From NCBI GenBank assembly GCA_021789695.1, contig JAJYJH010000005.1:1-64000 (forward strand): a stretch of DNA of 64,000 nucleotides, read 5' to 3'. The stretch is from a bacterium (lineage in GTDB: Bacteria > Elusimicrobiota > Elusimicrobia > Elusimicrobiales > UBA9959). Shown here piece by piece: positions 1,641 to 29,637 of this stretch (its first letter is position 1; every line of letters begins with the position of its first letter). Made by a program: the position numbers and the translations under genes. A model generated the notes under the pieces. That model was not told where the DNA came from. It saw only the letters and a program-made list of their open reading frames with translations, and ran no database searches.

Positions 1641-4600
1641 TGGGAGACAACCATGAGCCCACCTTCTTCTACCAGATAACCTATATTCAATTTGCTGGGA
1701 ACAGGATTGCCATCCGGGCGTTCTAACGCAACCTGGCCTGTATAAGATATCGACCTCAATATATATCGTCCGCTTGGAATCTTGCACGTTTTCCGAATTT
1801 CCACAGTCTGGCCACTGCGGAAGAACAGGACATTCTCCCCGCCATACTTTGCCTGGATTGTGCCCCTCTTCGTCCGCAATGATTCCCACACATAAACCGG
1901 TTCGACGCGCCACTTGCCCTTTTCGTCCTTGTATACCAACTGCCCCAGATGCTCCTTTTTATCTCGGATATATTGACCAGGCATTGAGTTCTTCCTGGGC
2001 TCAAATATCTCGCCGTGCTTTTGAGGCTTAAGGCCGTCAGGCCCGGCCGTAATCCCCCTTGCTTCCACGTAAGCAATTTTCCTGGGCCGTGTCCCGTTCT
2101 TACACTTATACCCAGCGATAAAAGCGGCCCAGTCTTCCTGCGTGGGGTTAGCTGCCAGTTTGCGCTCAAACTCCCCCCGTATCTGCCCGCTGTAGATATA
2201 CCGGACACGCTTTTTGGCGTCAGCCACTTTCAGCTTTCCCCAATCCTCAAGCCGGGTAGGTTTATCGCTTGTTTTCGCCGTGGTGATAGCGACATAATCA
2301 GCATCGCCTTCGGCCTTTCTCATTCCCAGCATAGTATCCGCTATGACTGGCTTTTTGAATTTCACATTTGTAGGGACCACCGTCTCGAGATTCTTCTGCG
2401 CGTAACCGGTATGGAACCAGGCCGGCAGGTTGAAGTCCCCGGTTTCCTTGTTGTATTCCATATCCGCTTCCATTGAAATCACCAGTGCGTCCAGAGCGTG
2501 GTGCCGGAGATTACCGCGATTCTTTGCTTTCCCCGCCCTAACAAGCTTCAAAAATTCCTCATCGGTTTTGTCCGGGTGCAGCAGGCGGTCAAGTTTATAG
2601 CGCCGGCGAACACGCGCGGTCTGCGCTCCATTGGATACAAACACGCGTTTACTTTCGCCCTTTACGCCTTCGGCCCAGCCAAAATACAAGGATGTTATAT
2701 TTTGCGCCAGTTTGGCTATATATGCCGTTTCAGCCAGAGCTGTATATTTTCCCACCAACTTTTCCGGCTCGGTGGAAAGCAATAATTGCCGCTTCTTCGG
2801 GGATAGATGGCAGGAATTTCTGGCTATTTTTTCCTCCAGCTTATCCCAGGCGGGAGTATTTGCCAACCACTGGTATGGGGTCCTGTCCTTTTTGGTCTGG
2901 TTATTGGAGTAGCGCGTCAAGACCAGATTATAGAAAGCGTCCGGGCCACCTGCGGAGCGCGGCACGATATGATCTATTTCACAGGATGCGATATCAGTCT
3001 CGGCTATTTTCTCGTTCTCACCCGCCTCGTAATAATCCAGCCCGTCCTGTTCTCGAAAAAGCCGCATCTTCAGCAGGCCGTCGCCTTTCAGACCCAAGCC
3101 CTCCGCCACTTTATATGCAATGTCGCGGGCTTTCTGATTATCACGGATACGCTTCTCATATTCCTTTTTAGCTTTCTCGCCCATAAAGTCTTCGCGGACG
3201 AATTCGAAATATATCTTATCCGGAACTCCGTGGGCGTCTTTCATACTCTGCAGGCGGCTCACCAGGTAATGCAGACGGTGCCTTACAACGGGATTGCGGA
3301 CATCGTTAATTATCTCGTTTATGCGCCGCTGGCTGTCCGCGGCGCTGCCCAGGATGGATGCGTCTTTAAGGCGGTTGTCCGGTATGTGAATGGCATACCA
3401 GGAGTTCCCCATATTCTTAAGGAATTCATATTCGCTTGTCAGAAGCCCCTTACGCGGATCTTCGTTCTTAAAACCTTCCGCCTTCGTCGCATGGAATTCT
3501 GCCGGACCTGCGCCCGAAAGCAGTAACTCTTTAACCAACCGCAATGCCGGGCGGCAATAGGAAGAGCGCCCGCCGATCTTGGGAGCTGGGATATTAGGAT
3601 GCGCCGGATTGACCTCGCAGCCCATGCGGTTAGCCAGCCATTTACGCCATTGCGTAGCGGTAAGATAATACTGTGTTTTCCATACCCCTTTCTGAAACAG
3701 CAAAGCGTGCCAGGCGGCCTGCGGCGAGTCACCAGTTTTCTTGTTTTCCTGGAGCGGATATGCCTGCGGCCAGACGTTTTCAACAAAGCCCCGGAATATT
3801 TCGGCAAGTTGGGCAGGCTCAAGGGCGCAATCCGGCTTATCGCCGTATGAGTAGCGAATATTTTTCAATGCCAGCAAAAAGCGCACTTCCTTATTAAGCG
3901 GGTCTTCTGCCTTGCAAACATTTAGCCTGGGGACAAGACAGCATTTATTTACGGCGCGGTTGTCGAATCGGGGCGTTTTCTGCGCGAATATTCCCTCTCC
4001 TTCTTTTTCCCCGCCCCGAATATGCCGCCATTCTTTGGAGTTCGTTATGGACGGAAACGCTACTCCCGGCTCTCCGTACATCACATGGTTTTCCCGGCCT
4101 TTCAGTTTAGGGAACAACTTTGCGGCCTGGGCGAGCAGCAACTTCAGCTCCTTCTCAACAAGCCGCCGCGGAGCTACGAAAGCTACGCCATCTTTATTCC
4201 TGGCAGCGCCGGGAGCGGGTGTTTCATGGCGCAGTTTAAAATCTTCCGGAAACCGCGGGTTCCATAAGCCCATGCGCTCCGCCTCATAGTAGCAGGGCAG
4301 ACGGCAAGCTTCTGGATAGGTTGCAAGACGCGCCTCGTACGCGCCGGCGGCGGTGGAATTTTTCTTTTCGTCCTCATGGTCTTCCGGTTCGTGCTCCGCG
4401 GGCACGACGTTTTCTTCGCCTTCATCCTCCGGGATATTTCTTTTTGAGTTCTTAGCCCATGGCAATTCCTCTGCAGGCATAAAGCCGCGATGCTGCAGCG
4501 CGGACCAGACAGCTTTAAACACCTGCCAGCCAGCCAGCGGTTTCCCCTGCGCAAGAGCTATGCGAAGCAGTGCTGAATTGTAAATAGTGTCGTCACCGGA

Positions 4601-4921
4601 AGCGGAAAATTCCCGCAACATGCGCGGATCAGGGTTATGCCGCAGAAGGTTCCCCTCCGAAGGACCATAGATAGGCTGGCGGGTCTCCAGCGTCTCTATG
4701 CCGCACTCGGCGCAGCATTTTCGCCACCACGCCTCACGTTTTCGGTGCGCCAGCCGTGTGCGGATCATCCGTCTGCGGGTCGCGGCATCATCAGTGGATG
4801 CGTATTTCTCAGGGATTAATAAGGACTCCAACCGCTTAACTTCTTCACCCTGCCTCACACATACACCAAGGCTGGCGACTCCCATATCAAACGCAAAAAC
4901 AGGTCCCTTCTTATTGGACAT
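1637..4921 (-). CDS. cas9: CRISPR-associated endonuclease Cas9 (type II-C)
   Basis: RNA-guided DNA endonuclease of 1094 aa, in the compact II-C range. All catalytic parts are seen: RuvC-I FAFDMGVASLG (Asp12), Arg-rich bridge helix (about 46-66), RuvC-II IYFEFVRE (Glu573), HNH CEIDHIVP with Asp650/His651 and a later Asn674, and RuvC-III LRHHALDAL (His808, Asp811). The REC lobe lies around 70-550 and the PAM-interacting end around 850-1094. An unusual acidic stretch is at about 164-187. A strong Shine-Dalgarno (GGGGGAG, 4925-4931) fixes the start at 4921. It is the first gene of the operon and overlaps cas1 by 4 bases. It should use the crRNAs from the array and the tracrRNA at 251-389. Nothing suggests inactivation. 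Confidence 0.98.
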   Translation of the reverse strand: MSNKKGPVFAFDMGVASLGVCVRQGEEVKRLESLLIPEKYASTDDAATRRRMIRTRLAHRKREAWWRKCCAECGIETLETRQPIYGPSEGNLLRHNPDPRMLREFSASGDDTIYNSALLRIALAQGKPLAGWQVFKAVWSALQHRGFMPAEELPWAKNSKRNIPEDEGEENVVPAEHEPEDHEDEKKNSTAAGAYEARLATYPEACRLPCYYEAERMGLWNPRFPEDFKLRHETPAPGAARNKDGVAFVAPRRLVEKELKLLLAQAAKLFPKLKGRENHVMYGEPGVAFPSITNSKEWRHIRGGEKEGEGIFAQKTPRFDNRAVNKCCLVPRLNVCKAEDPLNKEVRFLLALKNIRYSYGDKPDCALEPAQLAEIFRGFVENVWPQAYPLQENKKTGDSPQAAWHALLFQKGVWKTQYYLTATQWRKWLANRMGCEVNPAHPNIPAPKIGGRSSYCRPALRLVKELLLSGAGPAEFHATKAEGFKNEDPRKGLLTSEYEFLKNMGNSWYAIHIPDNRLKDASILGSAADSQRRINEIINDVRNPVVRHRLHYLVSRLQSMKDAHGVPDKIYFEFVREDFMGEKAKKEYEKRIRDNQKARDIAYKVAEGLGLKGDGLLKMRLFREQDGLDYYEAGENEKIAETDIASCEIDHIVPRSAGGPDAFYNLVLTRYSNNQTKKDRTPYQWLANTPAWDKLEEKIARNSCHLSPKKRQLLLSTEPEKLVGKYTALAETAYIAKLAQNITSLYFGWAEGVKGESKRVFVSNGAQTARVRRRYKLDRLLHPDKTDEEFLKLVRAGKAKNRGNLRHHALDALVISMEADMEYNKETGDFNLPAWFHTGYAQKNLETVVPTNVKFKKPVIADTMLGMRKAEGDADYVAITTAKTSDKPTRLEDWGKLKVADAKKRVRYIYSGQIRGEFERKLAANPTQEDWAAFIAGYKCKNGTRPRKIAYVEARGITAGPDGLKPQKHGEIFEPRKNSMPGQYIRDKKEHLGQLVYKDEKGKWRVEPVYVWESLRTKRGTIQAKYGGENVLFFRSGQTVEIRKTCKIPSGRYILRSISYTGQVALERPDGNPVPSKLNIGYLVEEGGLMVVSQ

Positions 4922-4984: not shown

Positions 4985-5986
4985 TTATTTAAGCAAATAC
5001 TTCGTATTCTTGTGCGCCCCCTCCGTAGATACTACCCCGGCTTTTAGCAGTGGCTTAAGCGCGTAATGCGCGCCGGGGGCGGTTACGCGCAGGGCGCGGG
5101 CTATTTCCCTTATGCCAAGCGGGCCGCGCTCGCGCAGGGTACGCAGAAGTTTTTCCTGCCGCAGAGTAAGGGACACGGGCAAACCTTTGCCCTTCAAGCC
5201 GAGAGCGGCCATGCGGCCCTGCACACGCTCAAGTGTCTCCAACACGGCTTCAGACATGAATTCCAACCAGGAACCCAAGTCTTCCCCTTCCACCTGCACG
5301 CGCTGGAGGGCTTTTATGTACAAGGCGCGATTCTCAAGTAATATTTCGTCCAGGGCAAAAACATGAAGCGTATCAAAACCAGCCATATAGAGCTGCCAGA
5401 TAGCCAATGCCCTGGCCACACGGCCATTGCCGTCGCGAAACGGGTGGATCTCAACAAAACGCAGATGAAGCAGTGCCGAAGAAAAAACAGCCGGCAGATC
5501 TTTGGCCTCGGTATCCAGCCAATGCAGCAAATCCCGCATTAGGCCGGGGATTTTTTTCCAAGGCGCGCCCACATGCAGTCCTGCCCGCACATCCAACCGC
5601 CGGTAAGCGCCTATCGGGCCATCGTCGCAGGCCCCTTCACCCATCAGCTTATGCATGAATAAAACGTCTTTCTCGGTAATATGCGCGGCCTTCTCACGCT
5701 TTTGCAGCCATTCCAACGCGGCAAGGTAGTTCTGCGCCATTCGGACGTCTTTATTGGGGTAGCCAAGGGCCTTTTTCCCCTCCATAAGCCCCTTCACGGC
5801 CTCAAGGGAGAGGGTGCAGCCCTCTATGGCGGTCGAACCCCAGGCGGCGCGGGCCATGGCGTCTTTTACCAGGGAAGGCACCCAGGGAACCTTTACGGCA
5901 GAAGCACGAATCTGCTCTTTGATCTCCGTTATGCTTTCCAGAAGGCGATAGACCCTGGCGGGTACCTTAAATTCAGGCTTATACAT
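4985..5986 (-). CDS. Fic family protein (probable AMP transferase) with C-terminal winged helix
   Basis: 333 aa. The Fic active-site motif HPFRDGNGR is at 181-189, complete with His181 and the GNGR anion hole. An inhibitory helix motif of the form (S/T)xxxE(G/N) is at 51-56 (STAIEG), placing it with class II Fic proteins whose activity is blocked in cis by the Glu. Residues about 268-333 look like a winged helix-turn-helix (LGIREIARALRV), common in this Fic subgroup, suggesting DNA binding and possible self-regulation. Fic enzymes usually transfer AMP to a hydroxyl of a target protein; the target here is unknown. It lies directly upstream of cas9 on the same strand, and a mutated fragment of a second copy lies at 8250-8367. 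The mRNA may be leaderless. Confidence 0.92.
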   Translation of the reverse strand: MYKPEFKVPARVYRLLESITEIKEQIRASAVKVPWVPSLVKDAMARAAWGSTAIEGCTLSLEAVKGLMEGKKALGYPNKDVRMAQNYLAALEWLQKREKAAHITEKDVLFMHKLMGEGACDDGPIGAYRRLDVRAGLHVGAPWKKIPGLMRDLLHWLDTEAKDLPAVFSSALLHLRFVEIHPFRDGNGRVARALAIWQLYMAGFDTLHVFALDEILLENRALYIKALQRVQVEGEDLGSWLEFMSEAVLETLERVQGRMAALGLKGKGLPVSLTLRQEKLLRTLRERGPLGIREIARALRVTAPGAHYALKPLLKAGVVSTEGAHKNTKYLLK

Positions 5987-17784: not shown

Positions 17785-19071
17785 CTACTGGTAGGGGTTC
17801 GCCGTCATACTGAGCAGATAGACGGCGGCCTTAACGTTGCGGTCCACCGCGCCCTTTATGATGGCAGGACCGGGATAGAAGCCGTCGCCTTCCAGTTCCA
17901 CCGTGAAGGCCAGCACCTTGTCGGTGGCGTAGGCCCAGTCGCAACTGTCGCCGGTGGCTATATAAAGGGCGCTGGACTTCTCGGCGGTATAGCCGGTCAG
18001 CTTTGCCATCTGGTCCGCTATCTTGACCAGGGCCGCCTTGTCCCTGGGGTCGGCCACGTCCTCGTCGCTGCCGCCGTAGGGATACAGTATCTCGCTGGCG
18101 TAGGAGTGATAGCTGATATGCGTCCTTATGTTCTTGTGCGCCAGGAAGAAGTCGCGGATGTGCTGGCTCTCGGGCTCGGAGAAGGCCTTGGGGCCGCAGT
18201 AGGTATCCGACGGAGGATAATGCGAGGCCCCCTCCCGGCACCACCAGGAATCGAAGTTGCGGTTCAGGTCCACGCCGAAGGAACCGTCGGAGTTCTTCTC
18301 CATGTTTTTGCGGAAGTACTGGTACTGGCCGTCCTTGATGTCGTACTCCACCCCGTCAGGATTGGCCATCGGGACGATAAAGATATCCAGCGTGGAGATG
18401 TAATTTCTGATGTCCGGGGTGTTGCGGTGGTCCATCAGCCAGGACGCGAACAGCAGCGGCACCTCGTCGGCCAGGTGCTCGCGCGCGTGGATATTTCCCA
18501 TAAAGAAGGCACCGGGCTTGTCGCTGGGGCCGTCGCCTTTGACGCTGGTGTTGATGCGCAGGCACCAGATGTCGCGGCCCTGCACGGTCTTGCCGATGGA
18601 GAAGACGGAGGCGATGTCACGGTTCTTGGCCGCCAGCTGCCGGAGCAGGTCGGTGGTCTCCTGGTAGTTGTGGTAGACGGCGTCGGCCTGGGGAAAGTCC
18701 CTGGACAACCGGGAGGCGTAGTCCGTAAGCGGCCGGCTGCTTAGCACCCTTACCGCCCTGGAGGAGAGGCGGTCCAGCAAGGCCTTGTCCGCTATGCCGG
18801 AAACGGTCTGCCTGTCCTTGCTGACCACCACTATGTCGAAACCCTCTTCCAGCAGGCGGGTGCGCGAGGGCTTATCCGGCGCCGCTATGGTAACCCAGTA
18901 ACGCCCGTCTGCCGACTGTCCCGGGACGGCCTTGACGGCCGGCGCCGGCGCGACGGGAAGCGGGGCAGAAATCTGCTCCAAAAGCTGGTCGTAGGAGGAA
19001 GAAGAGGCGGCCGCCAGTGCGGACAGAACTGAAAGAGAGGCCAGTATAAGCGGGAGCAGTATTTTTTTCAT
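17785..19071 (-). CDS. exported M14 family zinc carboxypeptidase
   Basis: About 428 aa with a signal peptide (MKKILLPLILASL...). Zinc ligands: HAREH (HxxE) in GNIHAREHL and the later His in THISYHSYASEILYPYG; the catalytic Glu is in FTVELEGDGFYP. The substrate-binding NPDGVEYD and DLNRNFDSWW motifs also fit. It removes C-terminal residues from peptides outside the cytoplasm. The chosen ATG (19071) gives a clean signal peptide; an ATG at 19095 is possible if the mRNA is nearly leaderless. Confidence 0.92.
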   Translation of the reverse strand: MKKILLPLILASLSVLSALAAASSSSYDQLLEQISAPLPVAPAPAVKAVPGQSADGRYWVTIAAPDKPSRTRLLEEGFDIVVVSKDRQTVSGIADKALLDRLSSRAVRVLSSRPLTDYASRLSRDFPQADAVYHNYQETTDLLRQLAAKNRDIASVFSIGKTVQGRDIWCLRINTSVKGDGPSDKPGAFFMGNIHAREHLADEVPLLFASWLMDHRNTPDIRNYISTLDIFIVPMANPDGVEYDIKDGQYQYFRKNMEKNSDGSFGVDLNRNFDSWWCREGASHYPPSDTYCGPKAFSEPESQHIRDFFLAHKNIRTHISYHSYASEILYPYGGSDEDVADPRDKAALVKIADQMAKLTGYTAEKSSALYIATGDSCDWAYATDKVLAFTVELEGDGFYPGPAIIKGAVDRNVKAAVYLLSMTANPYQ

Positions 19072-19093
19072 GCTGTTAATCTCTTTGCGAATC

Positions 19094-19109
19094 ATTGACT
19101 TCGGTCAAT
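19094..19109 (-). promoter_or_regulatory. perfect inverted repeat with TTCG loop at the carboxypeptidase start
   Basis: ATTGAC (19094-19099), TTCG, GTCAAT (19104-19109), between an AT-rich TATATAT box and the possible starts. It is either an operator or, in RNA, a stable tetraloop hairpin over the upstream ATG. Confidence 0.45.
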
Positions 19110-19205: not shown

Positions 19206-19820
19206 TTAGAAAAAAAATTTAAGCCCCAGCGCCAGGTACCAGAGACCGGCCAGCAGCAGGGTCAGGCGGCCTATCTCGCTAGCACGGCGCCCCAGCCAGG
19301 GAGTGCCGAGCATGACCGGTGCGGTGAAGAGCGTGGTGGCGGAGAAGAAACCGATGAAGTAGACGAGGCCTTTAGGAACATCCGCAAGCTGGAGCAGACG
19401 TATCAATCCGGCGGCGAAGGGCGGGCAGACGTTTATACCGGTAACAAAGCCGAGCAGCAGCGGTATGCGGTGGAACCACGGGTTCAGATCCGACTTCAGC
19501 AAACAGGGGCTGTCGCGGCCGGCGAGCCTGAAGACAGCCAGGAAAACCATAAGGAAGCCGCACGCCGCCATGGCGGCCGGCAGCGCCCATGCCGGCAGGG
19601 CGTAGCGGCCGGCCTCGCCAAGCACACTGGCCAGTACGGCGAAGATAAGATAGGCGGCGAAGCGCCCCCCGGTGAACTGCAGGAAGATGCCGAAGTTGAA
19701 GTCCCAGGCCATCTTTCCCTCCGCAAGCAGGTAGGGGGCCAGCAGGGGCAGGCAGGCGGCAAGGCAGTAGAAGCCCGTGGAAAGGCCCAGCAAAAAGCCT
19801 TCGGAAAAAAGGGCCGGCAC
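19206..19820 (-). CDS. TauE/DsbD-like (sulfite exporter / CcdA-type) membrane protein
   Basis: 204 aa with six hydrophobic segments. Cys-Pro features in YCLAACLPLLAP and GINVCPPFAAGL resemble the CcdA/DsbD transmembrane fold that carries electrons or metals across the membrane. The GTG start at 19818-19820 follows the zinc-ribbon stop by 2 bases, implying coupling. With the upstream iron-sulfur membrane protein it suggests a small redox or metal-handling unit. Confidence 0.7.
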   Translation of the reverse strand: MPALFSEGFLLGLSTGFYCLAACLPLLAPYLLAEGKMAWDFNFGIFLQFTGGRFAAYLIFAVLASVLGEAGRYALPAWALPAAMAACGFLMVFLAVFRLAGRDSPCLLKSDLNPWFHRIPLLLGFVTGINVCPPFAAGLIRLLQLADVPKGLVYFIGFFSATTLFTAPVMLGTPWLGRRASEIGRLTLLLAGLWYLALGLKFFF

Positions 19821-20033: not shown

Positions 20034-21167
20034 TTACCCGAAAATCAGTTTGACCATATCCCGCAGCGCCGCCGGGGCCCACAGGGAAGAGAAGGCGGAG
20101 GACAGCGTCAGGGCGGAGAAAACGTAAAAATATTTCACTGATACCAGCGCGCCGGCAGCCCCGCCGAAGGACGGCAGTTCAAGGCCGAAAACAGTATAGC
20201 GCAGCGCAGCGGAAGGGCAGGCGTCCAGGCACTGACCGCAGAGGTTGCAGTAGGCCAGTATCTCCGGCCGCGCGCCCGGAGCGAAGCTTACGGCGTTCAT
20301 TGGGCAGGCACGCTCGCAGGTCCCGCAGGCGGAGCACTTTGCGGCGTCGCCGGTCAGACGGAAAGGATTCAGCCGGCCCCATAAGGCCTGCCAGGCGGCA
20401 AAAGGACAGAGATAGGAGCAGAAGGTCCTTTTCCCGGTCAGCAGCGGACCCGCTACCAGCGCGGCCAGCGAGAGCCCCATCAGGCCGTACTGCGCGGCGC
20501 GCTCCCCGCCGCCCCTGGAGAGAAAAGCCCCTGTGAACTTGAACGGGCAGAGCCAGAGGCAGTACTCCGGAGCCATGTTGGCCAACGAAACCAGCAGGAA
20601 GAAGATCAGCAGCGCGGCGGGCAGGTCGCGCAGGAAACGAAGGCGGCCGGTCCCAACCAGCGGGCGCCGCACCGCGCCGCTCAGCCCGTCGTCTATGCCG
20701 CCGTAGAAGCAGGCCCAGGAGCACCAGCCGCGGCCTAGGGCAAGCGTGACGAAAAGCCACGCCGCGCCGAGCGTCAGCGGCCCCCACAACCGCCAGCCCG
20801 AGCTCATGAGCGCCAGGTACTGCTGGTAAAGATAACCCAAAAAATAGGGGGCCATGGCTATGTGGCAGTACGGGGTGCTGACAAAGCAGGTCGGGGCAAG
20901 GACCTTGTCCAGCAGGCCCAGCTTGAAATGGACCAAAAAAGCCAGGGCAGAAACGGAGAAGAAGAGTCTGCGGTAGAAGGAGACCTTCCCGGTGTAGGCG
21001 ATGGCGAAAGCGGCGGCCCCGGAGAAAATGGCCCAGACCATGGCATAAAGGCGGCTTATTTCCCGGCCGACTATCAGCCCTGAAAAGATGAAAGCAGGAA
21101 TGAAGACGAGCGCGAAAAAAAGGCCCGCTGCCGCGGCTTTCTTCCCCCGTGAAACTGCCGGTTCCAT
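20034..21167 (-). CDS. NapH/CcoG-like polyferredoxin membrane protein
   Basis: 377 aa. Several TM segments carry CxxxCP-type motifs (GWCSWACFYGG, YCLWLCPFK, FCSYLCPF), and near the C-terminus two 4Fe-4S sets, CSACGTCERACP and CNLCGQCLDACP. This is the layout of NapH/NosR-type electron carriers linking the quinone pool to periplasmic acceptors. No nap or nos genes are near, so the partner is unknown; the TauE/DsbD-like protein in the operon is a candidate. The ATG at 21167 with GGAGGAG is preferred over a TTG at 21182. Confidence 0.85.
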   Translation of the reverse strand: MEPAVSRGKKAAAAGLFFALVFIPAFIFSGLIVGREISRLYAMVWAIFSGAAAFAIAYTGKVSFYRRLFFSVSALAFLVHFKLGLLDKVLAPTCFVSTPYCHIAMAPYFLGYLYQQYLALMSSGWRLWGPLTLGAAWLFVTLALGRGWCSWACFYGGIDDGLSGAVRRPLVGTGRLRFLRDLPAALLIFFLLVSLANMAPEYCLWLCPFKFTGAFLSRGGGERAAQYGLMGLSLAALVAGPLLTGKRTFCSYLCPFAAWQALWGRLNPFRLTGDAAKCSACGTCERACPMNAVSFAPGARPEILAYCNLCGQCLDACPSAALRYTVFGLELPSFGGAAGALVSVKYFYVFSALTLSSAFSSLWAPAALRDMVKLIFG

Positions 21168-21186
21168 CGGCTGCTCCTCCAATTAG

Positions 21187-21201: not shown

Positions 21202-23247
21202 ATGGGGCTTTTCCTTCTATTCGGGTTTTATTCACTGCTGGCACAGGTGCTGTTACTACGCGAGGTGAGCCAAGTCTTCGGCGCGCAGGAACTTTCGCTG
21301 GCAGCCGCGCTCTCCTTCTGGCTGTTGTGGACCGCGGGCGGCGTCAGGCTGGGCTCGGGCGCGGCGAGAAGATTACCCTTCGCGGCGGCGGCTCTGCTCT
21401 TTCCGGCAGCGGCCGCGCTGAACCTGCTGCTGGCCAGGCTGGCCCCGGCTTTCCTGCCGGCCCTCTCGCGGCCAGGGCTCTTCACGATACTGGCCGGCTC
21501 CGCCCTGCTCTGCCTGCCGGCGGCCCTGGCCAACGGCTGGGCCGCCGGCGTCGCGCTGGCCGGCAGGCCGGCTTTCTTCTACGCGGCAGAGTCGGCCGGC
21601 TCCGCCGCGGCCGGCCTTTTAAGCGTGGCGTACTATCACTGGCTACCCGGCCTCGACCCGGCGATAGTGCTGGCGGCGACGGTCCCGCCTCTTGCGGCCG
21701 CCTGCGCTCTTTCCCGCCCGGTCTCGCGCCGGCGCGCGGCCGCCGCCGCTCTCTGCGTTCTGGTCTCGGCCGGCTCCGCGGCCCTGGCCCCGCGCTGCTA
21801 CAGGCTAAAGCCACCGGCCCAGCGCCCGGAGTTGGTGATGAACACCGAAGGCTCGCGGCTGGCCGCAGTGAAGAACGGCGGCCTCTCCTTCTACGAGGAT
21901 GGGCGCCTGCTGCACGCCCCGGAGGACCCCGCGCCTGAGGAACTGGTGCATATACCTCTGCTCTCGCTGCGCCCGCGCAGGGTGCTGATGCACGGCGGCG
22001 GGGCCTTCTTCGCCCTGCCGGAGGTGCTGAAACACAAGCCGTTTGAGATAGACATAGCAGAACCGGACCGCTTCCTGGCGGCCGCGCTGGAAAAGCTGAC
22101 AGGGGCCGCGGCAGGAAAGTTCACGCTGTTGAACGAGGACCCGCGGGCTATCAAAGGGAAGAACGGCTACTACTCCGCGATTATCAACGCCGGCAGCGCC
22201 CCCGAGAACGCGGCACAGAACAGATTCTACACGCTGGAGTATTTCCGCAAGGCCGCTTCTCTGCTGGCCCCTGGAGGAGCGCTGGTCTTCCAGCTTCCGT
22301 TCGCGGCCAACTACGTGCCTCCGGAGCAGGCATACGGCGCGGCCTGCGTACTGGCCGCGGCCCGCAAGGTCTTTACACATATAGCGATACTGCCTGGCTC
22401 GAAGCTGACGGTCATAGCCTCCTACGCCCCTGTGCACCTGGACCAGGCGGCCCTAACCGCCGCCTACTCGGACAGGGCACTCAAGACCAGGACGGTGGTC
22501 CCGTCCGCTTTTCCGTTCCTTCTAGACCCCTACCGCCTGGCCTGGGCCGCGGCGGCTATCGGGGCGGTGAGGTCGCCTCCGCTCAACACCGACCTGAACC
22601 CGCTGGCCTATTTCAGGTTCTGGCGGGCCTGGCTCTCCATGGTGATGACGCCCTCCTCCCTGCTGGGCCTGGCCGGCTTGGTCCTGGCGGCGCTTGCCGC
22701 CGGGCTGAAACTGGGCAGAACCCTCAGGTTCTCCCCCGAGGAACGCACCGGTGAGGCTTTCCTGATAGGCTTCTGGGGGCTGGCCTTCGAGACGGCGGTA
22801 CTGCTGGCCTTCCAGTCCGAAACCGGACGGCTCAGCCCGGAGCTGGGAGAGATGTTCGCGCTTTTCATGGCTGGCGCCGCGGCAGGAGCCTGGGCGGCCT
22901 TGCGCGCGGGGCGCCGCCTGATACCTGTCTTCGAGGTGACCGCGGCCTTGCTTGCCTTGCTGGCTGCGCTGCGGCCGGAGTTGGCGCAGTACACCTGGGG
23001 AGCGCGAGCGTTAATCCTTTCTGGAGGCGCCGTCTCCGGAGCCTTTTTCGCTGCCGCGGCGGGCGCCACGGGGCCTCAGGTATATTCCTGGGACCTTATA
23101 GGCGGGGCCGCAGGCGGGCTCGCGACGGCGGCCTTTGCCGCCCCGATGACCGGCATCGCCGGGACCATGTATCTGGCCGCAGCCTCGGCGGGCGCGGCGC
23201 TGGCCGGCTATTTCTTTTCTCTGAAGGCGTCCACGGTGAAAGAGTAG
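21202..23247 (+). CDS. membrane-bound spermidine-synthase-like protein
   Basis: 681 aa. An N-terminal membrane block of about six segments (1-200), a SpeE-like soluble domain (about 205-415) and a second membrane block (about 470-675). RRVLMHGGGAFFALPEVLKH is the SAM-binding strand of SpeE. The stretch where SpeE carries its catalytic Asp (YDxIxxDxxDP) reads YSAIINAGSAP, so normal aminopropyl transfer is unlikely. Such fused proteins are widespread but uncharacterised. Its end overlaps the antisense end of the Memo/AMMECR1 gene by 40 bases. Confidence 0.75.
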   Translation: MGLFLLFGFYSLLAQVLLLREVSQVFGAQELSLAAALSFWLLWTAGGVRLGSGAARRLPFAAAALLFPAAAALNLLLARLAPAFLPALSRPGLFTILAGSALLCLPAALANGWAAGVALAGRPAFFYAAESAGSAAAGLLSVAYYHWLPGLDPAIVLAATVPPLAAACALSRPVSRRRAAAAALCVLVSAGSAALAPRCYRLKPPAQRPELVMNTEGSRLAAVKNGGLSFYEDGRLLHAPEDPAPEELVHIPLLSLRPRRVLMHGGGAFFALPEVLKHKPFEIDIAEPDRFLAAALEKLTGAAAGKFTLLNEDPRAIKGKNGYYSAIINAGSAPENAAQNRFYTLEYFRKAASLLAPGGALVFQLPFAANYVPPEQAYGAACVLAAARKVFTHIAILPGSKLTVIASYAPVHLDQAALTAAYSDRALKTRTVVPSAFPFLLDPYRLAWAAAAIGAVRSPPLNTDLNPLAYFRFWRAWLSMVMTPSSLLGLAGLVLAALAAGLKLGRTLRFSPEERTGEAFLIGFWGLAFETAVLLAFQSETGRLSPELGEMFALFMAGAAAGAWAALRAGRRLIPVFEVTAALLALLAALRPELAQYTWGARALILSGGAVSGAFFAAAAGATGPQVYSWDLIGGAAGGLATAAFAAPMTGIAGTMYLAAASAGAALAGYFFSLKASTVKE

Positions 23248-24680
23248 AGCTCTGTTCCCTTCTGCTTCCAGCAGTCCCGGGGAAGGCCAGCCTTCTGCGA
23301 GCAGAGTTCCCCCATGAAAGCGTCTTTGCCTGGCAGTTCCTTCCAAACCTGAGGCAGGAAGAGGCCGCTGTGCCCGTTCCCGGCCACCACCACACCCTCC
23401 TTGCCCGGTTTTATGTCCCGGGCCTTGACCGGTGTGAGCGGCGAAAGGACAGAAACTTCTATACTTACCCCGCCCAACTCTTCCTTCCCGAGCGGGCCGA
23501 ACCTGCGGTCGCGGAAGGCCGCGCTGAAAGCGGCGAAGCGCACCGCGTCCACGAGCGTCATGTCCGGTTCCACCGTACCGACGCAACCGCGCAGCTTTCC
23601 GTCTTCCTTGAGCGTCACGAAGACCGACCCCGGCAGGTCCAGTCGTGGATCAGGGTCCAGGCCGGCCGGCTGCGGTTCGCCGGCGAAGACGCGCTCCAGC
23701 GTCCGGCGCGCCTCCTTCAGCAGCGCTTGCCGTTCGGCACCGGAAAGGACGAGGTCCGCCGGCTTGCCGGCGTCGGTGAAGACCCCGCTCATGTAACCCA
23801 CTACGGACTCCGGACCGGCCTCGCCGCTCTCCGAAGAGGAATCCGAAAGCGCCAGCGGCGTGAACGACTTCGCGCCCAGAAGCTTCGCCGCCGTCATGCC
23901 GGCCTCTATGGCCGCCTCGCCACAGGCGCAGGTGACGAGGTTCTGGATGTTCTTGGCCAGTATGTAATGGGCTGTAGTCCAGACCAGGGCCGGGGCCATG
24001 CTCTCGATAGCCAGCTTCATCGCCCCGTCCGATTCCGCCGCCACGGCCTTCCGCGGGTAATGGGAGAAATCGGAGGACATGACTATCAGCGCCTTCCTGC
24101 CCTTCAGCGCGGCGGCCAGCGCCCGGCCGACGGCCTCGGCCGTAGCCAGATTGCCGGTGTTGAGCGTGGCGGCCAGCAGCTTGAACGGCTTCTTCAGGCG
24201 GCGTTGCAGGAAAGGCAACTGCACTTCTATGGAATGCTCCTTCTCGTGCGCGGCAGGATCGTCCTTGAAGAGCGGGCTCGACTTGATCAATTCCCTGGCC
24301 AGGGCCCGGTCCGTCGGCACCTTCCCCAGAGGGGTGCTGTAGTCGTCCGAGGCCAGGAGCGCGGCACCCCTGACCGGCGCGTAATGGCCGGTGCCCAGGA
24401 TCACCACGGTATCGTAGCCGGCGTCCAGGAACCAGTAGGACATGCCGGCCACGCGGCCGGAGAAGTCGTAGCCGGCGTGCGGGGATATGACCGCCAGCAC
24501 CTTGCCGGCAGGCCGCCCGGCGTCCTTAGGGACGGAAAGCCAGGCGTCCACCCGCCGGGCCAGCTCTTTCGGATTGGAAGGATAGAACTTGCCGGCCACG
24601 GCGGGCTCGCGCGCGGAGCCCGGTCCGGACAGCAGCGGCAGCGCTAAAAAAACCAGCACGGCTAACGCCTTATTGTTCAT
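23208..24680 (-). CDS. AmmeMemoRadiSam protein B (Memo) fused to protein A (AMMECR1), exported
   Basis: 490 aa with a signal peptide (1-23). Memo domain about 25-303 with the family metal-site residues His68 (ISPHAGY), His99 (GTGHYAP), His207 (SSDFSHY) and Cys253 (CACGEA). AMMECR1 domain about 310-490 with its hallmark LRGCVG at 363-368. These two proteins co-occur with the radical SAM enzyme encoded next door; the biochemical role is not established. Here they form one polypeptide that appears to leave the cytoplasm. GGAG lies 7 bases before the ATG. Separated from the radical SAM gene by 19 bases, same operon. Confidence 0.93.
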   Translation of the reverse strand: MNNKALAVLVFLALPLLSGPGSAREPAVAGKFYPSNPKELARRVDAWLSVPKDAGRPAGKVLAVISPHAGYDFSGRVAGMSYWFLDAGYDTVVILGTGHYAPVRGAALLASDDYSTPLGKVPTDRALARELIKSSPLFKDDPAAHEKEHSIEVQLPFLQRRLKKPFKLLAATLNTGNLATAEAVGRALAAALKGRKALIVMSSDFSHYPRKAVAAESDGAMKLAIESMAPALVWTTAHYILAKNIQNLVTCACGEAAIEAGMTAAKLLGAKSFTPLALSDSSSESGEAGPESVVGYMSGVFTDAGKPADLVLSGAERQALLKEARRTLERVFAGEPQPAGLDPDPRLDLPGSVFVTLKEDGKLRGCVGTVEPDMTLVDAVRFAAFSAAFRDRRFGPLGKEELGGVSIEVSVLSPLTPVKARDIKPGKEGVVVAGNGHSGLFLPQVWKELPGKDAFMGELCSQKAGLPRDCWKQKGTELYSFTVDAFREKK

Positions 24681-24699
24681 AGTCCCACTCCGTTCCGGA

Positions 24700-25929
24700 C
24701 TACTTCCAGATACCGGGAATCCTGGTCCCGTCCCAAGGGCAGAGCCCGCCGGTGGGCGTCAGGCGGTCCTCCAGCACGGCGTAGCCGTAGCGGCGCACCA
24801 GCACGCGTCCGCACTTAGGACAGAAGGTGTTCTCCCCAGGGTCTCCCGGCACGTTGCCGACGTAGACGTAATGCAGGCCCCTGGCCATCGCTATCTCCCG
24901 CGCCTTGTCCAGCACGGCCGCTGGGGTCGGCGGCGCGTCGGTCAGCAGATATTCCGGCATGAATCTGGAGAAGAACAACGGCGTGTCGGCCCCCAGGTTG
25001 TCCTTTACCCAGCCGGATAGGGCGGCCAGGTCCCGCTGCGAGTCGTTCAACCCGGGAATCACCAGATTGACCACCTCCGTCAGCTTCTTCTTTTTCTTCA
25101 GCTCCAGCAGCGTCCGCTTGACGGCCTCCAGGTCGCCCCCGGCGTAACGGCGGTAGAAGGATGGCGTGAAACCTTTCAGGTCTATCTTCACCACGTTCAT
25201 GTAGGGAAGCAGCTCGTCGAGCGGGCGGCGGTTGATGTAGCCCGCGCTGACCATGACGTTCTTCAGGCCGGCCGCGTGCGCCAGTTTCGCGGTGTCGTAC
25301 ATATACTCGTAGAAGACCGAGGGCTCGGAATAGGTGAAGGCCACGGAGCGGCAATGCGTCGCCTTGGCGTAGCGCACTACCTCCTCCGGGGAGAGCTCGG
25401 AGGTTACCGCGGTGAAAATCTCTCCGTAAAGCCTGCCGTCGGGACCCCGCCTAACGGCCAGGGAGGAAGGGACCGCGGACGCGGCCGGGGCCTGCTCCGG
25501 GTAGATTTGAGAGATCTCCCAGTTCTGGCAGCCCCTGCACCTGAGATTGCAGCCCGGAGCGGCCAGCGAATACACCAGGCTGCCAGGGTATATGTGGTAG
25601 ACCGGCTTCTTCTCTATAGGGTCAACGTGCACCGCAGCCGGCAGGGCGTAAACCAGGGTCTTCAGCTTCCCGCCGGAATTCATGCGCACCCTGCAGCGGC
25701 CCCGCGCGCCTTCCGGCAGGAAGCAGTTCCACGGACAGAGGCGGCACCGCACGCCGTCGCAGACGGGGGCCGCGAAACGGGCGTCACGGACGTGCGGGTT
25801 ACTTTCCGGAAAGAGGGAGGCGAAGGTTGAAGGAGGCGGTCTGAAGGCCGTCAGAGCCGCGGCCGCCACCGCCATGCCCGCGGCCGCGAAAGCCCAGGCG
25901 AAGGCGGCGGCCGCGCGCCGGCGGCTCAT
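24700..25929 (-). CDS. AmmeMemoRadiSam system radical SAM enzyme, membrane-anchored
   Basis: 409 aa. The radical SAM cluster motif CNLRCRGC (Cys127, 131, 134) is preceded by a Cys-rich entry (Cys57, 62, 65, 69, 79; CRLCPWNC), and CPKC lies near the C-terminus; all are usual for this family. The N-terminus SRRRAAAAF followed by a hydrophobic stretch (about 10-28) looks like a Tat-type or anchoring signal. The ATG at 25929 overlaps the LOG gene stop (ATGA). The frame extends to 26049 inside the LOG gene but shows no conserved sequence. Confidence 0.92.
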   Translation of the reverse strand: MSRRRAAAAFAWAFAAAGMAVAAAALTAFRPPPSTFASLFPESNPHVRDARFAAPVCDGVRCRLCPWNCFLPEGARGRCRVRMNSGGKLKTLVYALPAAVHVDPIEKKPVYHIYPGSLVYSLAAPGCNLRCRGCQNWEISQIYPEQAPAASAVPSSLAVRRGPDGRLYGEIFTAVTSELSPEEVVRYAKATHCRSVAFTYSEPSVFYEYMYDTAKLAHAAGLKNVMVSAGYINRRPLDELLPYMNVVKIDLKGFTPSFYRRYAGGDLEAVKRTLLELKKKKKLTEVVNLVIPGLNDSQRDLAALSGWVKDNLGADTPLFFSRFMPEYLLTDAPPTPAAVLDKAREIAMARGLHYVYVGNVPGDPGENTFCPKCGRVLVRRYGYAVLEDRLTPTGGLCPWDGTRIPGIWK

Positions 25930-26795
25930 TTTTTGCTGGCCTCTTCGTACGGGTGGGCCTTGTAGAAGGCCTTTATCCGCCCGAGGATCTCTTCGCCAGA
26001 TTCGGCGAAGGAGAAGAGGTCCAGGTCCTCCTCGGAGATGTAGCCCCACTTGGCCATGTTCCTGAAGTGGATGACGTCCTCCCAGTACTTCCTGCCCACC
26101 AGCACTATGGGCAGGCGGCTCTTCTTGCCTGTCTGCACCAGCGTCAGGACCTCGAAGAGCTCGTCCATCGTGCCGAAGCCGCCGGGGAACACCACCAGGG
26201 CCCTGGCCCGCATCACGAAGTGCATCTTACGGATCGCGAAGTAGTGGAAGCGGAAGCAGAACTCGGGGGAAACGTAAGGGTTCGGGCCCTGCTCCATCAT
26301 CAGCGTGATATTGAGGCCCACGCTGTGCGCGCCGGCCTCATGAGCGCCGCGATTGGCGGCCTCCATGATACCCGGGCCGCCTCCGGTGACCACCACCAGC
26401 TTGCGGCCGTTGTTTAGCACGTCGGTCTGCGAGACCAGACGGCCGAAATCTCGGGCTATTTCATAGAACTTGGTGGACGCCCTGAGGCGCTTCACGGAGG
26501 CCAACTTATTGCGGAGCATCGGATTCTTCGGGTCCTTCTTCAGCATGGCCTCGACGCTCTTTACGCGCTCGTCGGTCTGCTCCTTGTCCCAGCTCCGCGC
26601 GCTGCCGAAGACCACGACGGTGGACTTAACGTCGTGTTCCTCCAGTATCATCTCCGGCTTCAGCAGCTCCAGCTGCAGCCGCACAGGGCGCAGTTCGTCG
26701 CGGCTAAGGAACTCAGGGTCGGTGTAAGCCTTGCGGTAAGCTGGCGACCTGCGCAGCGCCAGAATTTCCTTGCTGACTTTGGGGGTTTTATTCAC
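25926..26795 (-). CDS. LOG family protein (TIGR00730 Rossmann fold)
   Basis: 289 aa. Signatures VVTGGGPGIMEAANRGAH and FPGGFGTMDELFE (PGGxGTxxE) define the family once called lysine decarboxylases; members split nucleoside 5'-monophosphates to release base and ribose phosphate (LOG activity in cytokinin makers). An N-terminal extension of about 90 residues is present, as in longer bacterial members. GTG start at 26793-26795 with AAGGAG six bases before it. First gene of the operon with the AmmeMemoRadiSam pair. Confidence 0.9.
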   Translation of the reverse strand: MNKTPKVSKEILALRRSPAYRKAYTDPEFLSRDELRPVRLQLELLKPEMILEEHDVKSTVVVFGSARSWDKEQTDERVKSVEAMLKKDPKNPMLRNKLASVKRLRASTKFYEIARDFGRLVSQTDVLNNGRKLVVVTGGGPGIMEAANRGAHEAGAHSVGLNITLMMEQGPNPYVSPEFCFRFHYFAIRKMHFVMRARALVVFPGGFGTMDELFEVLTLVQTGKKSRLPIVLVGRKYWEDVIHFRNMAKWGYISEEDLDLFSFAESGEEILGRIKAFYKAHPYEEASKK

Positions 26796-26825: not shown

Positions 26826-28709
26826 TCAAACTGCAGCTCCGGCGCGCCGGCCCAGCCAGGCCGCCGCCGCCGCGGCCATCTTTTCCGGCGTCAGACCTAT
26901 CTCCTCGTAAAGCTCTTCCGGCTTGCCCTGTTCCACGTATGAATCCGGGATGCCGAGGCGCAGCAGGCGCGGCTGCAGGCCCGCGGAATTGAGGAACTCC
27001 AGCACAGCGGAACCGAAGCCGCCGGCCAGAGAATTGTCCTCCGTCGTTACCAGCGAGCCCGCGACGGCCAGTTCCTTTATCAGTTCCTCGTCCAGCGGCT
27101 TGACGAAGCGCATATCGGCCACGCCGGCGTCTATGCCGGCCGCCTTCAGCAACTCGGCCGCCTTCAGCGCCGGATGAACCCGGTTGCCTATCGCCAGGAA
27201 ATTCAGGTCGCGGCCGCGAGAGAGCGCGCGGCCGCGGCCTATAGGCAGCGCCTTCGGCTCCGGATCCATGACAACGCCGAAGCCCTTACCGCGCGGGTAG
27301 CGCAGCAGGGCCGGCCGGCCGCAGGAAAGGGCCGTAGCCAACATATGCTGCAGCTCGTTCTCGTCGGCTGGGGCCATCACGACCACGTCGGGAACCATGC
27401 GAAAAAGCCCGAGATCGAACACGCCGTGATGGGTCGGCCCGTCCTCCCCCACCACGCCGGCGCGGTCCATGGCTATGACGACCGGCAGTTTCTGCAGCGA
27501 GATGTCGTGCTGCACCTGGTCGAAGGCGCGCTGCATGAACGAGGAGTAGATCGCGGCCACCGGCCGCAGGCCCTCCGCGGCGAGGCCGGCGGCGAACGTG
27601 ACGGCGTGCTCCTCGGCTATGCCCACGTCGTAGTAGCGCCGCGGGAAAGCGTCGCGGAAAAGGTCCAGGCCGGTTCCTTCCGGCATCGCGGCGGTTATCG
27701 CGCAAATCTTCGGGTCCTTCTTGGCCAGTTCCACCAGCGTGCGGCCGAACACCTGAGTGAAGGTGGGCGTCTGCGTTCCGGCCGCAGGGGCTTTCTTCGC
27801 CTCGCCGGTCCGCACGTCGAACTTCGGCGTGCCGTGGAACTCGGTGGGCGAGTCTTCGGCGGGCTCATAACCGCGGCCCTTCTTGGTTACCACGTGCAGC
27901 AACACCGGCCCCTTGAGGCCCTTCACGTAGCCCAGCACCTCCGCCAATTCGGAAAGGTTGTGGCCGTCCACCGGACCGAAATAGGTGAACCCCATCTCCT
28001 CGAAGATCATGCCTGGGAAGAACAGCACGCGGGCGCGCTTGGCCACGCGCAGCGCCTGCTTGCCCCAGAACTGGAAGCGGTTCAGGAACAGCTCGGCCTT
28101 GCGCCCGGCGTCCTGCACGGTGCCGAGCGTGAGCAACTTCGTCAAAATGTGGCCGAGCCGGCCTACGCGCTGCGAGATGAACATCTGGTTGTCATTGAGG
28201 ACCACCAGCAGGTCGGTACGCAACTGGCCTATGTTCTGCATAGCCTCCCAGGCCATACCGCCGGTCATCGCGCCGTCGGCCACCACGGCCACAACGCGGT
28301 GCGAGGCGCCCTGCTGGTCGCGGGCCGCCGCCATGCCCGCCGCGGCGGAGAGCGCCGTGGAAGCGTGGCCGGCGCCGAAGGCGTCGTACTCCGACTCGTA
28401 GCGCTTCAGGAATCCGGAGAGGCCGCCCTTCGTGCGTATCGTGGCGAATTTGTCGGCTCGGCCGGTCAGGATCTTGTGGGCGTAGGCCTGGTGACCGGTG
28501 TCGAAAACTATGCGGTCGCGCGGCGTGTCGAAGACGTAGTGCAGGGCCAGTATCAGGTCGGTAGCGCCGAGGCTGGAGGCCAGGTGGCCGCCGGTGCTGC
28601 TGACACCATCGACTATCAGCTTGCGCACTTCGGAGGCGAGCGCCGGCAGCTGCTCCAGCGGAAGTTTCTTAATATCCTCGGGACCGCGGATGTTCTTAAG
28701 GAGTTCCAT
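26826..28709 (-). CDS. dxs: 1-deoxy-D-xylulose-5-phosphate synthase
   Basis: 627 aa, usual length. It joins pyruvate and glyceraldehyde 3-phosphate with thiamine diphosphate, the first step of the DXP pathway. The TPP-binding block VVADGAMTGGMAWEAMQN with the later NDN, GHASTALSAAAGMA, and the transketolase-type EEHAVTFAAGLA and DRAGVVGEDGPTHHGVFD are complete. It starts 1 base after the polyprenyl synthase stop, so the two are one isoprenoid operon. Confidence 0.97.
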   Translation of the reverse strand: MELLKNIRGPEDIKKLPLEQLPALASEVRKLIVDGVSSTGGHLASSLGATDLILALHYVFDTPRDRIVFDTGHQAYAHKILTGRADKFATIRTKGGLSGFLKRYESEYDAFGAGHASTALSAAAGMAAARDQQGASHRVVAVVADGAMTGGMAWEAMQNIGQLRTDLLVVLNDNQMFISQRVGRLGHILTKLLTLGTVQDAGRKAELFLNRFQFWGKQALRVAKRARVLFFPGMIFEEMGFTYFGPVDGHNLSELAEVLGYVKGLKGPVLLHVVTKKGRGYEPAEDSPTEFHGTPKFDVRTGEAKKAPAAGTQTPTFTQVFGRTLVELAKKDPKICAITAAMPEGTGLDLFRDAFPRRYYDVGIAEEHAVTFAAGLAAEGLRPVAAIYSSFMQRAFDQVQHDISLQKLPVVIAMDRAGVVGEDGPTHHGVFDLGLFRMVPDVVVMAPADENELQHMLATALSCGRPALLRYPRGKGFGVVMDPEPKALPIGRGRALSRGRDLNFLAIGNRVHPALKAAELLKAAGIDAGVADMRFVKPLDEELIKELAVAGSLVTTEDNSLAGGFGSAVLEFLNSAGLQPRLLRLGIPDSYVEQGKPEELYEEIGLTPEKMAAAAAAWLGRRAGAAV

Positions 28710-28710
28710 A

Positions 28711-29637
28711 TCAGTTTTCCCGCCTATAGACGAAATCGGCTATGCCGGCCAGGGCTTTCTTTGGCGCTTCGGCGCCACGCACTTTTTCTAGCCGCCCGAG
28801 GGCCCGCGCCATCAACCCCTCAGCCCGGCGTCGGGCCTCGCCTACCCCGAGAAGGGAGGCATAGGTGAGCTTGCGATTGCGCGCGTCGCTGCCGCTCTTG
28901 CCCAGCTTCTCCTTGTCACCGACCACGTCGAGAACGTCGTCTGTCACCTGGAAGCAGAGTCCCATTTCCCGCCCGAAAGCGGAAAGAGCCATGAAATCCT
29001 TCTCCGGAGCCCCCGCCAGCGCGGCGCCCATCTCCAGCGCGGCGGTCAGCAGGTCCGCGGTCTTGTGCAGGTGTATGTAGGAAAGCAGTTCCAGTCCCTT
29101 GCGCCCGCGGGCGGGCGTGAGCTTCGAATCCAGGAAGCCCTCGGCCTCAAGGTCCGCCGCCTGGCCCGAAACCATGCCGCGCGCCCCGGACCTGGTGGCC
29201 AGCACCGAGGCCGCTTTCAGCAGGAACGCGGGCTTAACCCGGGCCGGATACCCCGAGGACAGCAGCACGGTGAAGGAATCGGTCAGCAACGCGTCGCCGG
29301 CCAGCACGGCCAGCGCCTCGCCGTAGACCTTATGGCAGGTGGGCCTGCCGCGGCGCAGGTCGTCGTCGTCCATCGCGGGAAGGTCGTCGTGCACCAGCGA
29401 ATATGTATGCACCATCTCCAGCGCGCAGGCGGCCGGCAGTATGTCTCCGGCGCGGCCGCCGAAGATCTCGTAGGCGGCGCCCATCAACACCGGGCGCAGG
29501 CGCTTGCCCCCGGCGGACAGCGTGTAGGACATGGCCTCGGCCAGGCGCGGATGTGCCCCTTTGAGGCGAGAAACGAATAAAGGCAGCGCCCTGTTGACCG
29601 CTTGCGCCCTTTTCCTGAGGTAGAGCTCGGTACGCAT
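28711..29637 (-). CDS. polyprenyl diphosphate synthase (IspA type)
   Basis: 308 aa. Both Asp-rich motifs are seen: HDDLPAMDDDDLRRG (first) and QVTDDVLDVVGD (second). It condenses isopentenyl diphosphate with allylic diphosphates; size fits farnesyl or geranylgeranyl diphosphate synthase, and the chain length cannot be fixed from sequence by eye. Directly upstream of dxs. Confidence 0.93.
   Translation of the reverse strand: MRTELYLRKRAQAVNRALPLFVSRLKGAHPRLAEAMSYTLSAGGKRLRPVLMGAAYEIFGGRAGDILPAACALEMVHTYSLVHDDLPAMDDDDLRRGRPTCHKVYGEALAVLAGDALLTDSFTVLLSSGYPARVKPAFLLKAASVLATRSGARGMVSGQAADLEAEGFLDSKLTPARGRKGLELLSYIHLHKTADLLTAALEMGAALAGAPEKDFMALSAFGREMGLCFQVTDDVLDVVGDKEKLGKSGSDARNRKLTYASLLGVGEARRRAEGLMARALGRLEKVRGAEAPKKALAGIADFVYRREN

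Follow-up and report, generated by a model that had tools for sequence, protein, structure and literature searches.

A putative extracytoplasmic AmmeMemoRadiSam pair with candidate membrane partners in an Elusimicrobiota genome

Known AmmeMemoRadiSam and related systems

Memo, AMMECR1 and an associated radical S-adenosylmethionine (SAM) enzyme form a trio that is usually regarded as intracellular, and Memo–Ammecr1 systems were reportedly treated by Burroughs et al. in 2019 (J Biol Chem). The trio is already known and has been named AmmeMemoRadiSam by NCBI (TIGR04335, TIGR04336 and TIGR04337; radical SAM gene amrS). A passage in PMC7159879 cites the association of the three proteins and points to the 2019 Memo–Ammecr1 work. 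The present report concerns a gene pair of this type in a 64,000-nucleotide stretch from a bacterium of the Elusimicrobiota (contig JAJYJH010000005.1, positions 1 to 64,000; hereafter the window), of which both products appear to carry signals for export or membrane anchoring. Among the papers listed by searches of the open-licence PubMed Central literature, none was seen to deal with export of a radical SAM enzyme from this family; exported forms may already be described in the 2019 paper.

With AmmeMemoRadiSam, the window pair has the three domains, the catalytic residues and the gene adjacency in common, but it adds export or anchor signals, extra membrane partners and a second set in the same genome whose radical SAM enzyme has no signal. 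Profile searches place the activases of glycyl-radical enzymes (PflA and YjjW; TIGR02493 and TIGR04041) closest among characterised radical SAM enzymes, but the window enzyme, P0002, stays far below the activase cut-offs and no glycyl-radical enzyme gene was noticed nearby. The fold of SpeE and of the 'fused MFS/spermidine synthase' family (MFS, major facilitator superfamily; NF037959) is shared by the neighbouring protein P0004, whose domain, unlike SpeE, sits between seven plus seven transmembrane helices, is predicted to be extracytoplasmic and has no catalytic aspartate. Fer4_5, Fer4 and DsbD_2 domains link further window proteins to the NapH/NosR/CcoG ferredoxins and to CcdA/DsbD, whereas the window genes are linked to the radical SAM enzyme and Memo instead of nitrate, nitrous oxide or oxidase genes. 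We read the pair as a probable AmmeMemoRadiSam system that works outside the cytoplasm and is supplied by a membrane module; the extracytoplasmic location, the conserved gene set and the separability of a cysteine module are well supported by several independent lines of sequence comparison.

The gene pair and the second set in the same genome

The following features define the pair.

24700..25929, minus strand: AmmeMemoRadiSam radical SAM enzyme P0002 (TIGR04337), 409 residues, putative membrane-anchored form
25852..25908, minus strand: N-terminal signal anchor of P0002, residues 8–26, predicted N-in/C-out from its hydrophobicity in family orthologues and its flank charges
25693..25761, minus strand: N-terminal cysteine module of P0002 (C57, C62, C65, C69 and C79), persisting as a stand-alone stub in relatives
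25528..25551, minus strand: radical SAM cluster motif CNLRCRGC (C127, C131 and C134), cysteines invariant in a 15-sequence alignment
23208..24680, minus strand: Memo(B)–AMMECR1(A) fusion P0001 (TIGR04336 and TIGR04335), 490 residues, with a signal peptide
24612..24680, minus strand: Sec-type signal peptide of P0001, predicted cleavage between GSA and REP; orthologous loci have a signal and then the canonical Memo start
23577..23594, minus strand: AMMECR1 motif LRGCVG, with R364, G365, C366 and G368 the same in all 30 family copies, from full as well as stub loci

In the profile search, P0002 reached 326.5 bits against TIGR04337 (cut-off 220), and its orthologues (51–92%) have the same synteny. 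The start codon of the gene overlaps the stop codon of the TIGR00730 gene upstream as ATGA, which supports the start assignment, and the protein begins with MSRRR, followed by the hydrophobic residues 8–26. Four cysteines of the N-terminal module are invariant across the 15 aligned radical SAM enzymes, and the full-length exported enzymes in this alignment retain CxxxCxxC and the other family-invariant residues.

Residues 24–301 of P0001 correspond to TIGR04336 (219 bits, cut-off 26) and residues 319–486 to TIGR04335 (165 bits, cut-off 99). Its AlphaFold2 model, with a mean predicted local distance difference test (pLDDT) score of 90, matches MEMO1 (7l5c) and the AMMECR1-family structures 1zq7 and 1vaj in Foldseek. 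The Memo residues H68, H99, H207 and C253 are invariant in the 30 family copies; the three histidines align with those of the MEMO1 metal set, of which we take C253 to be the fourth member. The N-terminus reads MNNKALAVLVFLALPLLSGPGSA, followed by REPAVAGKFYP, and the predicted signal peptide ends where canonical Memo proteins begin. By eye, it consists of an n-region, an h-region and an AxA-type site ahead of the mature domain, all of which are kept in orthologues. An initial annotation, made from the letters alone, had placed P0002 and P0001 at these positions with a Memo His/His/His/Cys set and an LRGCVG motif, and each of these elements is present.

The window genome holds a second radical SAM enzyme, this one without a signal (L006, 5750–6769, 339 residues, N-terminus MKEALLYEKLEGGKTRCGVC). 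Its second Memo–AMMECR1 fusion lies on a different contig (L007, likely start MIRKPAVAGKFY) and is likely cytoplasmic; an alternative, longer reading of this fusion from an upstream ATG would include a hydrophobic stretch. Memo and AMMECR1 are thus fused in both copies of this genome, as they are in most loci of an 80-locus sample, and since the fusion is general it is uninformative on the exported version. The initial annotation had taken the fusion as a sign that A and B share a substrate or complex; the fusion itself is there, but the conclusion is weakened because such fusions are the norm. That annotation had overlooked the second set, the spermidine-synthase-like and NapH/DsbD neighbours described below and the recurrent shortening of the radical SAM enzyme to its N-terminal module in relatives.

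Export signals and membrane topology

Signals were called by a rule based on hydropathy and charge; applied to 57 cytoplasmic controls, it called no protein exported. In the window and in 22 further loci of its family with the same synteny, full-length radical SAM enzymes retain a hydrophobic segment at the N-terminus, in most cases with a PPPxTF stretch after it, and the neighbouring Memo has a signal peptide throughout, as judged by eye (29 family Memo N-termini were assessed in this way). The anchors or signals of the two proteins extend over several genera. Flank charges were counted for 27 of 30 N-termini (L039 and L055, with unclear starts, and the decayed L069 were left out); the N-terminal flank of the anchor was more positive than the C-terminal flank in 23, equal in four and less positive in none, a bias that indicates an N-in, C-out topology.

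The SRRR of P0002 had raised a suspicion of twin-arginine translocation (Tat), and this part of the initial annotation did not hold. TatC (PF00902) had no match in the window genome, which is 95.7% complete, and 20 genomes of the genus, the window's own included, were listed without a match. The twin arginine is not conserved, RR being found in few of the family orthologues, and in the four TatC-bearing genomes of the family in which the N-terminus of the radical SAM enzyme was read (G018, G021, G027 and G033), this enzyme has the same type of anchor without RR. Tat export of P0002 was rejected on the lack of a TatC match together with the unconserved RR, and on this comparison its twin arginine is incidental.

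Distribution in the phylum and beyond

TIGR04337 was matched in 155 of 340 genomes of the phylum, in 114 of them above the cut-off. Among the 30 best-scoring radical SAM loci of the phylum, 23 have an export signal (Sec or Tat; classes assigned by eye). One of these 23 is L098, from the TatC-bearing genome G330, and its signal is clearly of the Tat type. A multi-phylum sample was formed by 80 loci from genomes of named species, covering many phyla and including archaea. These are the best 80 of at least 587 confirmed stretches, ranked against a Tat-type lead sequence, and proportions within this biased sample are not frequencies. There, the hydropathy and charge rule found a signal on the radical SAM enzyme in 51 of 78 loci. 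With a Tat-like pattern added, 60 of 79 enzymes were signalled (Tat, Sec or anchor) and 19 were not, all by rule, with L114 unscored and with L161 and L175 exported by rule but doubtful.

Signal calls for the radical SAM enzyme and Memo agreed in 21 of the 29 loci that could be scored for both (18 with both signals, three with neither). Among the eight discordant loci, L120, L122, L123, L160 and L174 have what look by eye like signals or lipoboxes overlooked by the strict rule, L143 and L151 have an unsignalled radical SAM enzyme adjoining a signalled Memo, and in L161 the call on the radical SAM enzyme is the doubtful one. A CxxCH motif, as in c-type heme attachment, lies between the signal and the N-terminal cysteine cluster in the enzymes of L123, L165 and L174; the other CxxCH motifs of radical SAM enzymes, which lie in the zinc-ribbon-like part at the C-terminus or, for L183, within the cysteine cluster, were not counted. 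Matches to the radical SAM enzyme on plasmids of cultured hosts (six records) aligned from query residues 40–49 and had no conserved N-terminus.

The orthologues, the Tat- or Sec-signalled homologues in many phyla, the flank charges and the c-heme motifs together argue for an extracytoplasmic location. The initial annotation had remarked on export or anchor signals of the two products and on how odd it would be to export such an enzyme, and these points find support in the orthologues and in the Tat, Sec or anchor signals of homologues from many phyla.

Two side observations concern these loci. In L199 (9106–11245), a signalled and an unsignalled AmmeMemo radical SAM gene stand side by side. 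DUF362-type proteins, some with Tat-like N-termini, adjoin the exported radical SAM enzyme and mostly also Memo in L122, L126, L127 and L162.

A polytopic protein with a spermidine-synthase fold

The next gene after the fusion codes for the candidate membrane partner P0004.

21202..23247, plus strand: polytopic spermidine-synthase-like protein P0004 (seven transmembrane helices, SpeE-fold domain, seven transmembrane helices), tail-to-tail with the Memo–AMMECR1 gene
21814..22596, plus strand: SpeE-fold domain of P0004, residues 205–465, catalytic aspartate replaced (IINAGSAP), as seen in an alignment of 45 members and in one with solved SpeE

The AlphaFold2 model of P0004 (29 sequences; pLDDT 83, predicted TM-score (pTM) 0.86) consists of seven helices, a domain at about residues 205–465 and further helices, and the domain resembles the spermidine synthase 1uir (TM-score 0.62–0.65 by target length, Foldseek E 5e-09). 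By lysine plus arginine counts, the predicted location of the domain is outside in all 29 members (511 vs 92), with loop labels set from the AlphaFold2 helices and two merged helices split by hand. The catalytic aspartate of SpeE, the first D of the motif VDSTDP, is missing across the 45 aligned members; the glycine-rich loop is retained and so, for the most part, is the acidic residue of the nucleotide site.

When 811 open reading frames of the 80 loci were clustered, the outstanding neighbour after the radical SAM enzyme and Memo–AMMECR1 was a SpeE-like polytopic protein of about 700–850 residues. A SpeE-like protein of at least 400 residues was found beside 31 of 60 signalled and two of 19 unsignalled radical SAM enzymes (Fisher p = 0.0014, uncorrected for the relatedness of the loci and hence optimistic).

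Repeated loss of the radical SAM domain

In five genomes of the family (G005, G014, G024, G025 and G030) and on contig C356 of G044 (loci L063–L068), the radical SAM gene is reduced to an intact open reading frame of about 100 residues with the anchor and the cysteine module. These stubs end shortly past KTLVY (KTLVH in G044), and the Memo gene begins directly after them or no more than about 45 bases further on; in G011, even the stub has decayed. A tree of 30 loci built from three proteins requires six changes for the stub state, five of them forced by starred branches, or five changes (four forced) without G044.

Of the seven loci with an intact or decayed stub, six lack P0004; at the seventh (L067 in G030), the contig stops, and P0004 was not found by a search of the genome. 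Among the 36 family genomes G000–G035, P0004 occurs in 25, namely in all 24 with an exported full-length radical SAM enzyme and in G004, whose locus is cut by a contig break. The five intact-stub genomes and the decayed G011 lack it, as do G006, G020, G026, G031 and G032, in which no exported-type Memo was found either. Five of the six genomes of G000–G035 with an intact or decayed stub still have a NapH-like gene, and so does the G044 stub locus (L068). The catalytic residues of Memo and AMMECR1 show no change in the stub loci; three columns that are invariant in full loci vary in stubs, each in one stub locus and none of them catalytic. The ratio of non-synonymous to synonymous substitution rates (dN/dS) in the stub region is 0.15–0.38 (0.30 for the sister stubs L065 and L066), as compared with 0.11–0.22 for full pairs, after exclusion of two pairs that involve L042 and L049, loci that were not recovered.

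Gene fission was considered and rejected: among the genome-wide matches listed for G005, G011, G014, G024, G025 and G030, there is no catalytic half, and the radical SAM-like matches listed there are paralogues only, with about 36–41% identity. The stub pattern suggests two sub-modules, one formed by the radical SAM domain and the SpeE-like protein and the other by Memo–AMMECR1, the cysteine anchor and NapH. Cysteine stubs of about 100 residues are probably missed by annotation elsewhere.

Membrane redox proteins and other neighbours

Further along the same side, two membrane proteins with redox domains and a peptidase are encoded.

20034..21182, minus strand: NapH-like membrane ferredoxin P0003, probable electron conduit (TIGR02163, 62 bits, below the cut-off of 213)
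19206..19820, minus strand: DsbD_2 (CcdA-like) membrane protein (PF13386), probable redox partner
17785..19095, minus strand: exported M14 carboxypeptidase (PF00246), a conserved neighbour kept in synteny and a putative member at most

A NapH-like gene is found in 28 of the 31 genomes that have an exported-type Memo among G000–G035. NapH-like, DsbD, SpeE-like, Memo and radical SAM genes occur together in the window and in L200, a locus of another family of the same class, and L201 has SpeE-like, NapH-like and DsbD_2 genes; the DsbD_2 proteins of L200 and L201 are of the same type as that of the window, and DsbD_2-type neighbours also occur in other phyla. In the multi-phylum sample, DsbD_2, NapH-like or NosR-like (FMN_bind plus Fer4_5) neighbours were seen at 10 of 80 loci, nine with a signalled radical SAM enzyme and L135, whose enzyme has no signal by rule. 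The list of cytoplasmic-type loci used for the neighbour clusters was set by eye and comprises 18 loci, with L135 and L151 outside it.

Upstream of P0002 lies the following gene, which serves as context only.

25926..26795, minus strand: TIGR00730 (LOG) protein, start/stop-overlapping with P0002

The LOG gene formed no recurrent cluster among the neighbours in the 80-locus sample. Genes for dxs and a polyprenyl synthetase follow upstream of the pair (window 26826–29637) and are conserved in family f1; an isoprenoid link was considered on this ground and rejected, as no such cluster appeared in the 80 loci. At the other end of the window, a lower-GC region (1–739 and 1637–4921) contains the end of a CRISPR array (four 34-nucleotide repeats at 66-nucleotide spacing), Cas2 (PF09827) and a Cas9-like protein of 1094 residues with HNH_4 and RuvC_III domains. 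A Fic protein is encoded beside it at 4985–5986.

Proposed mechanism and alternative explanations

In the proposed mechanism, the N-terminal anchor would hold the radical SAM enzyme on the outside of the cytoplasmic membrane, and Memo–AMMECR1 would be secreted via Sec to the same side. The NapH-like ferredoxin and the DsbD-like protein would carry reducing equivalents across the membrane, and the electrons would probably reach the N-terminal cysteine module of the radical SAM enzyme and then its radical SAM cluster, the Memo metal or both; the direction of this flow we only infer. P0004, with 14 transmembrane helices and an outward spermidine-synthase fold devoid of the catalytic aspartate, may be the SAM-handling partner of the radical SAM domain. 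A role in supplying SAM, possibly by bringing it across the membrane, is speculative and, as we judge it, unlikely. Memo, with its extradiol-dioxygenase fold, and AMMECR1, with its LRGCVG motif, would together be the conserved effector and act on one and the same envelope substrate, and the radical SAM domain and the SpeE-like protein would form a SAM-dependent branch. It is doubtful, though worth stating, that outer-face radical SAM chemistry extends over many bacterial phyla and some archaea, via a dedicated SAM-exporting or SAM-presenting protein with 14 transmembrane helices and conduits of the NapH/NosR/DsbD type, in the service of secreted Memo–AMMECR1.

Several points weigh against this mechanism. 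We know of no free pool of SAM and no iron–sulphur (Fe–S) cluster assembly outside the cytoplasm, and P0002 would have to receive its clusters there, because there is no Tat. The NapH assignment is distant (62 bits against a cut-off of 213), and weak NapH-type matches lie near the unsignalled L164, L178 and L181. The association of SpeE-like proteins with signalled enzymes has the optimistic p value noted above, and in L135 and L151 a SpeE-like protein is present beside an unsignalled enzyme. In G044, the stub locus exists together with a full-type locus with a SpeE-like gene on a 4.9-kb contig, where the frame of the radical SAM gene is broken by one TAG. A sign test on the independent losses (five of five pairs, p = 0.06; four of four, p = 0.125) cannot reach 0.05. 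About 20 genomes of family f21 have a SpeE-like protein and no radical SAM enzyme above the TIGR04337 cut-off, which weakens the idea of SAM supply by this protein; in five of eight inspected f21 loci (L187, L188, L189, L190 and L193), it adjoins an exported protein of the metallo-beta-lactamase (MBL)/beta-CASP type, as identified for L189 by a Pfam scan of the neighbour and for the other four by N-terminal likeness. A dedicated coupling of SpeE-like and radical SAM proteins throughout the phylum was likewise weakened by the f21 loci.

The explanation with the most weight besides the proposed mechanism, still an unlikely one, is that the SpeE-like protein acts as a transferase in the periplasm, or as a transporter with a different role, and is linked to the radical SAM enzyme by a shared pathway such as envelope polyamine or lipid modification and not by SAM supply. 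The f21 neighbourhoods with an exported MBL-fold protein and no AmmeMemo radical SAM enzyme fit it, as does the placement of the family by NCBIfam near 'fused MFS/spermidine synthase', but the 45 aligned members have lost the catalytic aspartate and kept the glycine-rich positions and, for the most part, the acidic one of the nucleotide site. Less probable again is a radical SAM fold that sits outside and works without SAM, as a membrane-anchored Fe–S/cysteine electron-transfer subunit serving Memo. On this account the catalytic domain is dispensable because the fold is used without SAM, which would agree with its repeated loss while the cysteine module stays under constraint, with the unchanged Memo–AMMECR1 residues and with the persistence of NapH in five of the six genomes of G000–G035 that have an intact or decayed stub. 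Full-length exported copies nevertheless keep CxxxCxxC and other family-invariant residues, and the loss of the catalytic domain goes along with that of a protein whose spermidine-synthase fold is one for ligands of the SAM type.

It is distinctly unlikely that the radical SAM enzyme is membrane-tethered and faces the cytoplasm, with Memo–AMMECR1 alone being exported. SAM, cluster assembly and reductant would then need no new biology, four of the 27 N-termini have equal flank charges, and the enzymes of L135 and L151 are unsignalled although their neighbours are envelope proteins. However, 23 of the 27 N-termini favour N-in/C-out and none the reverse, homologues of the same domain order have Tat or Sec signals, and three of them have a c-heme motif N-terminal to the radical SAM domain. 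Mis-assigned starts, with both proteins being ordinary cytoplasmic enzymes, are very improbable: the second set without a radical SAM signal in the window genome would be in line with them, but they are opposed by the ATGA overlap, the conserved hydrophobic N-termini and the purifying selection on the N-terminal module. This objection, like that of cytoplasmic homologues, had been anticipated in the initial annotation and failed for the exported clade when tested.

Implications

Memo and AMMECR1 are conserved in humans, and an exported, genetically compact version with recurrent partners narrows the candidates for their biochemical role. Such a version would imply a reaction on an envelope or extracellular substrate that needs electrons delivered through the membrane. 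The loss of the radical SAM domain with retention of Memo–AMMECR1 and the stub may serve as a natural experiment that separates the function of the trio with and without the radical enzyme. If it is true that SAM-dependent radical chemistry occurs outside the cytoplasm, a supply route for SAM and for clusters must exist there.

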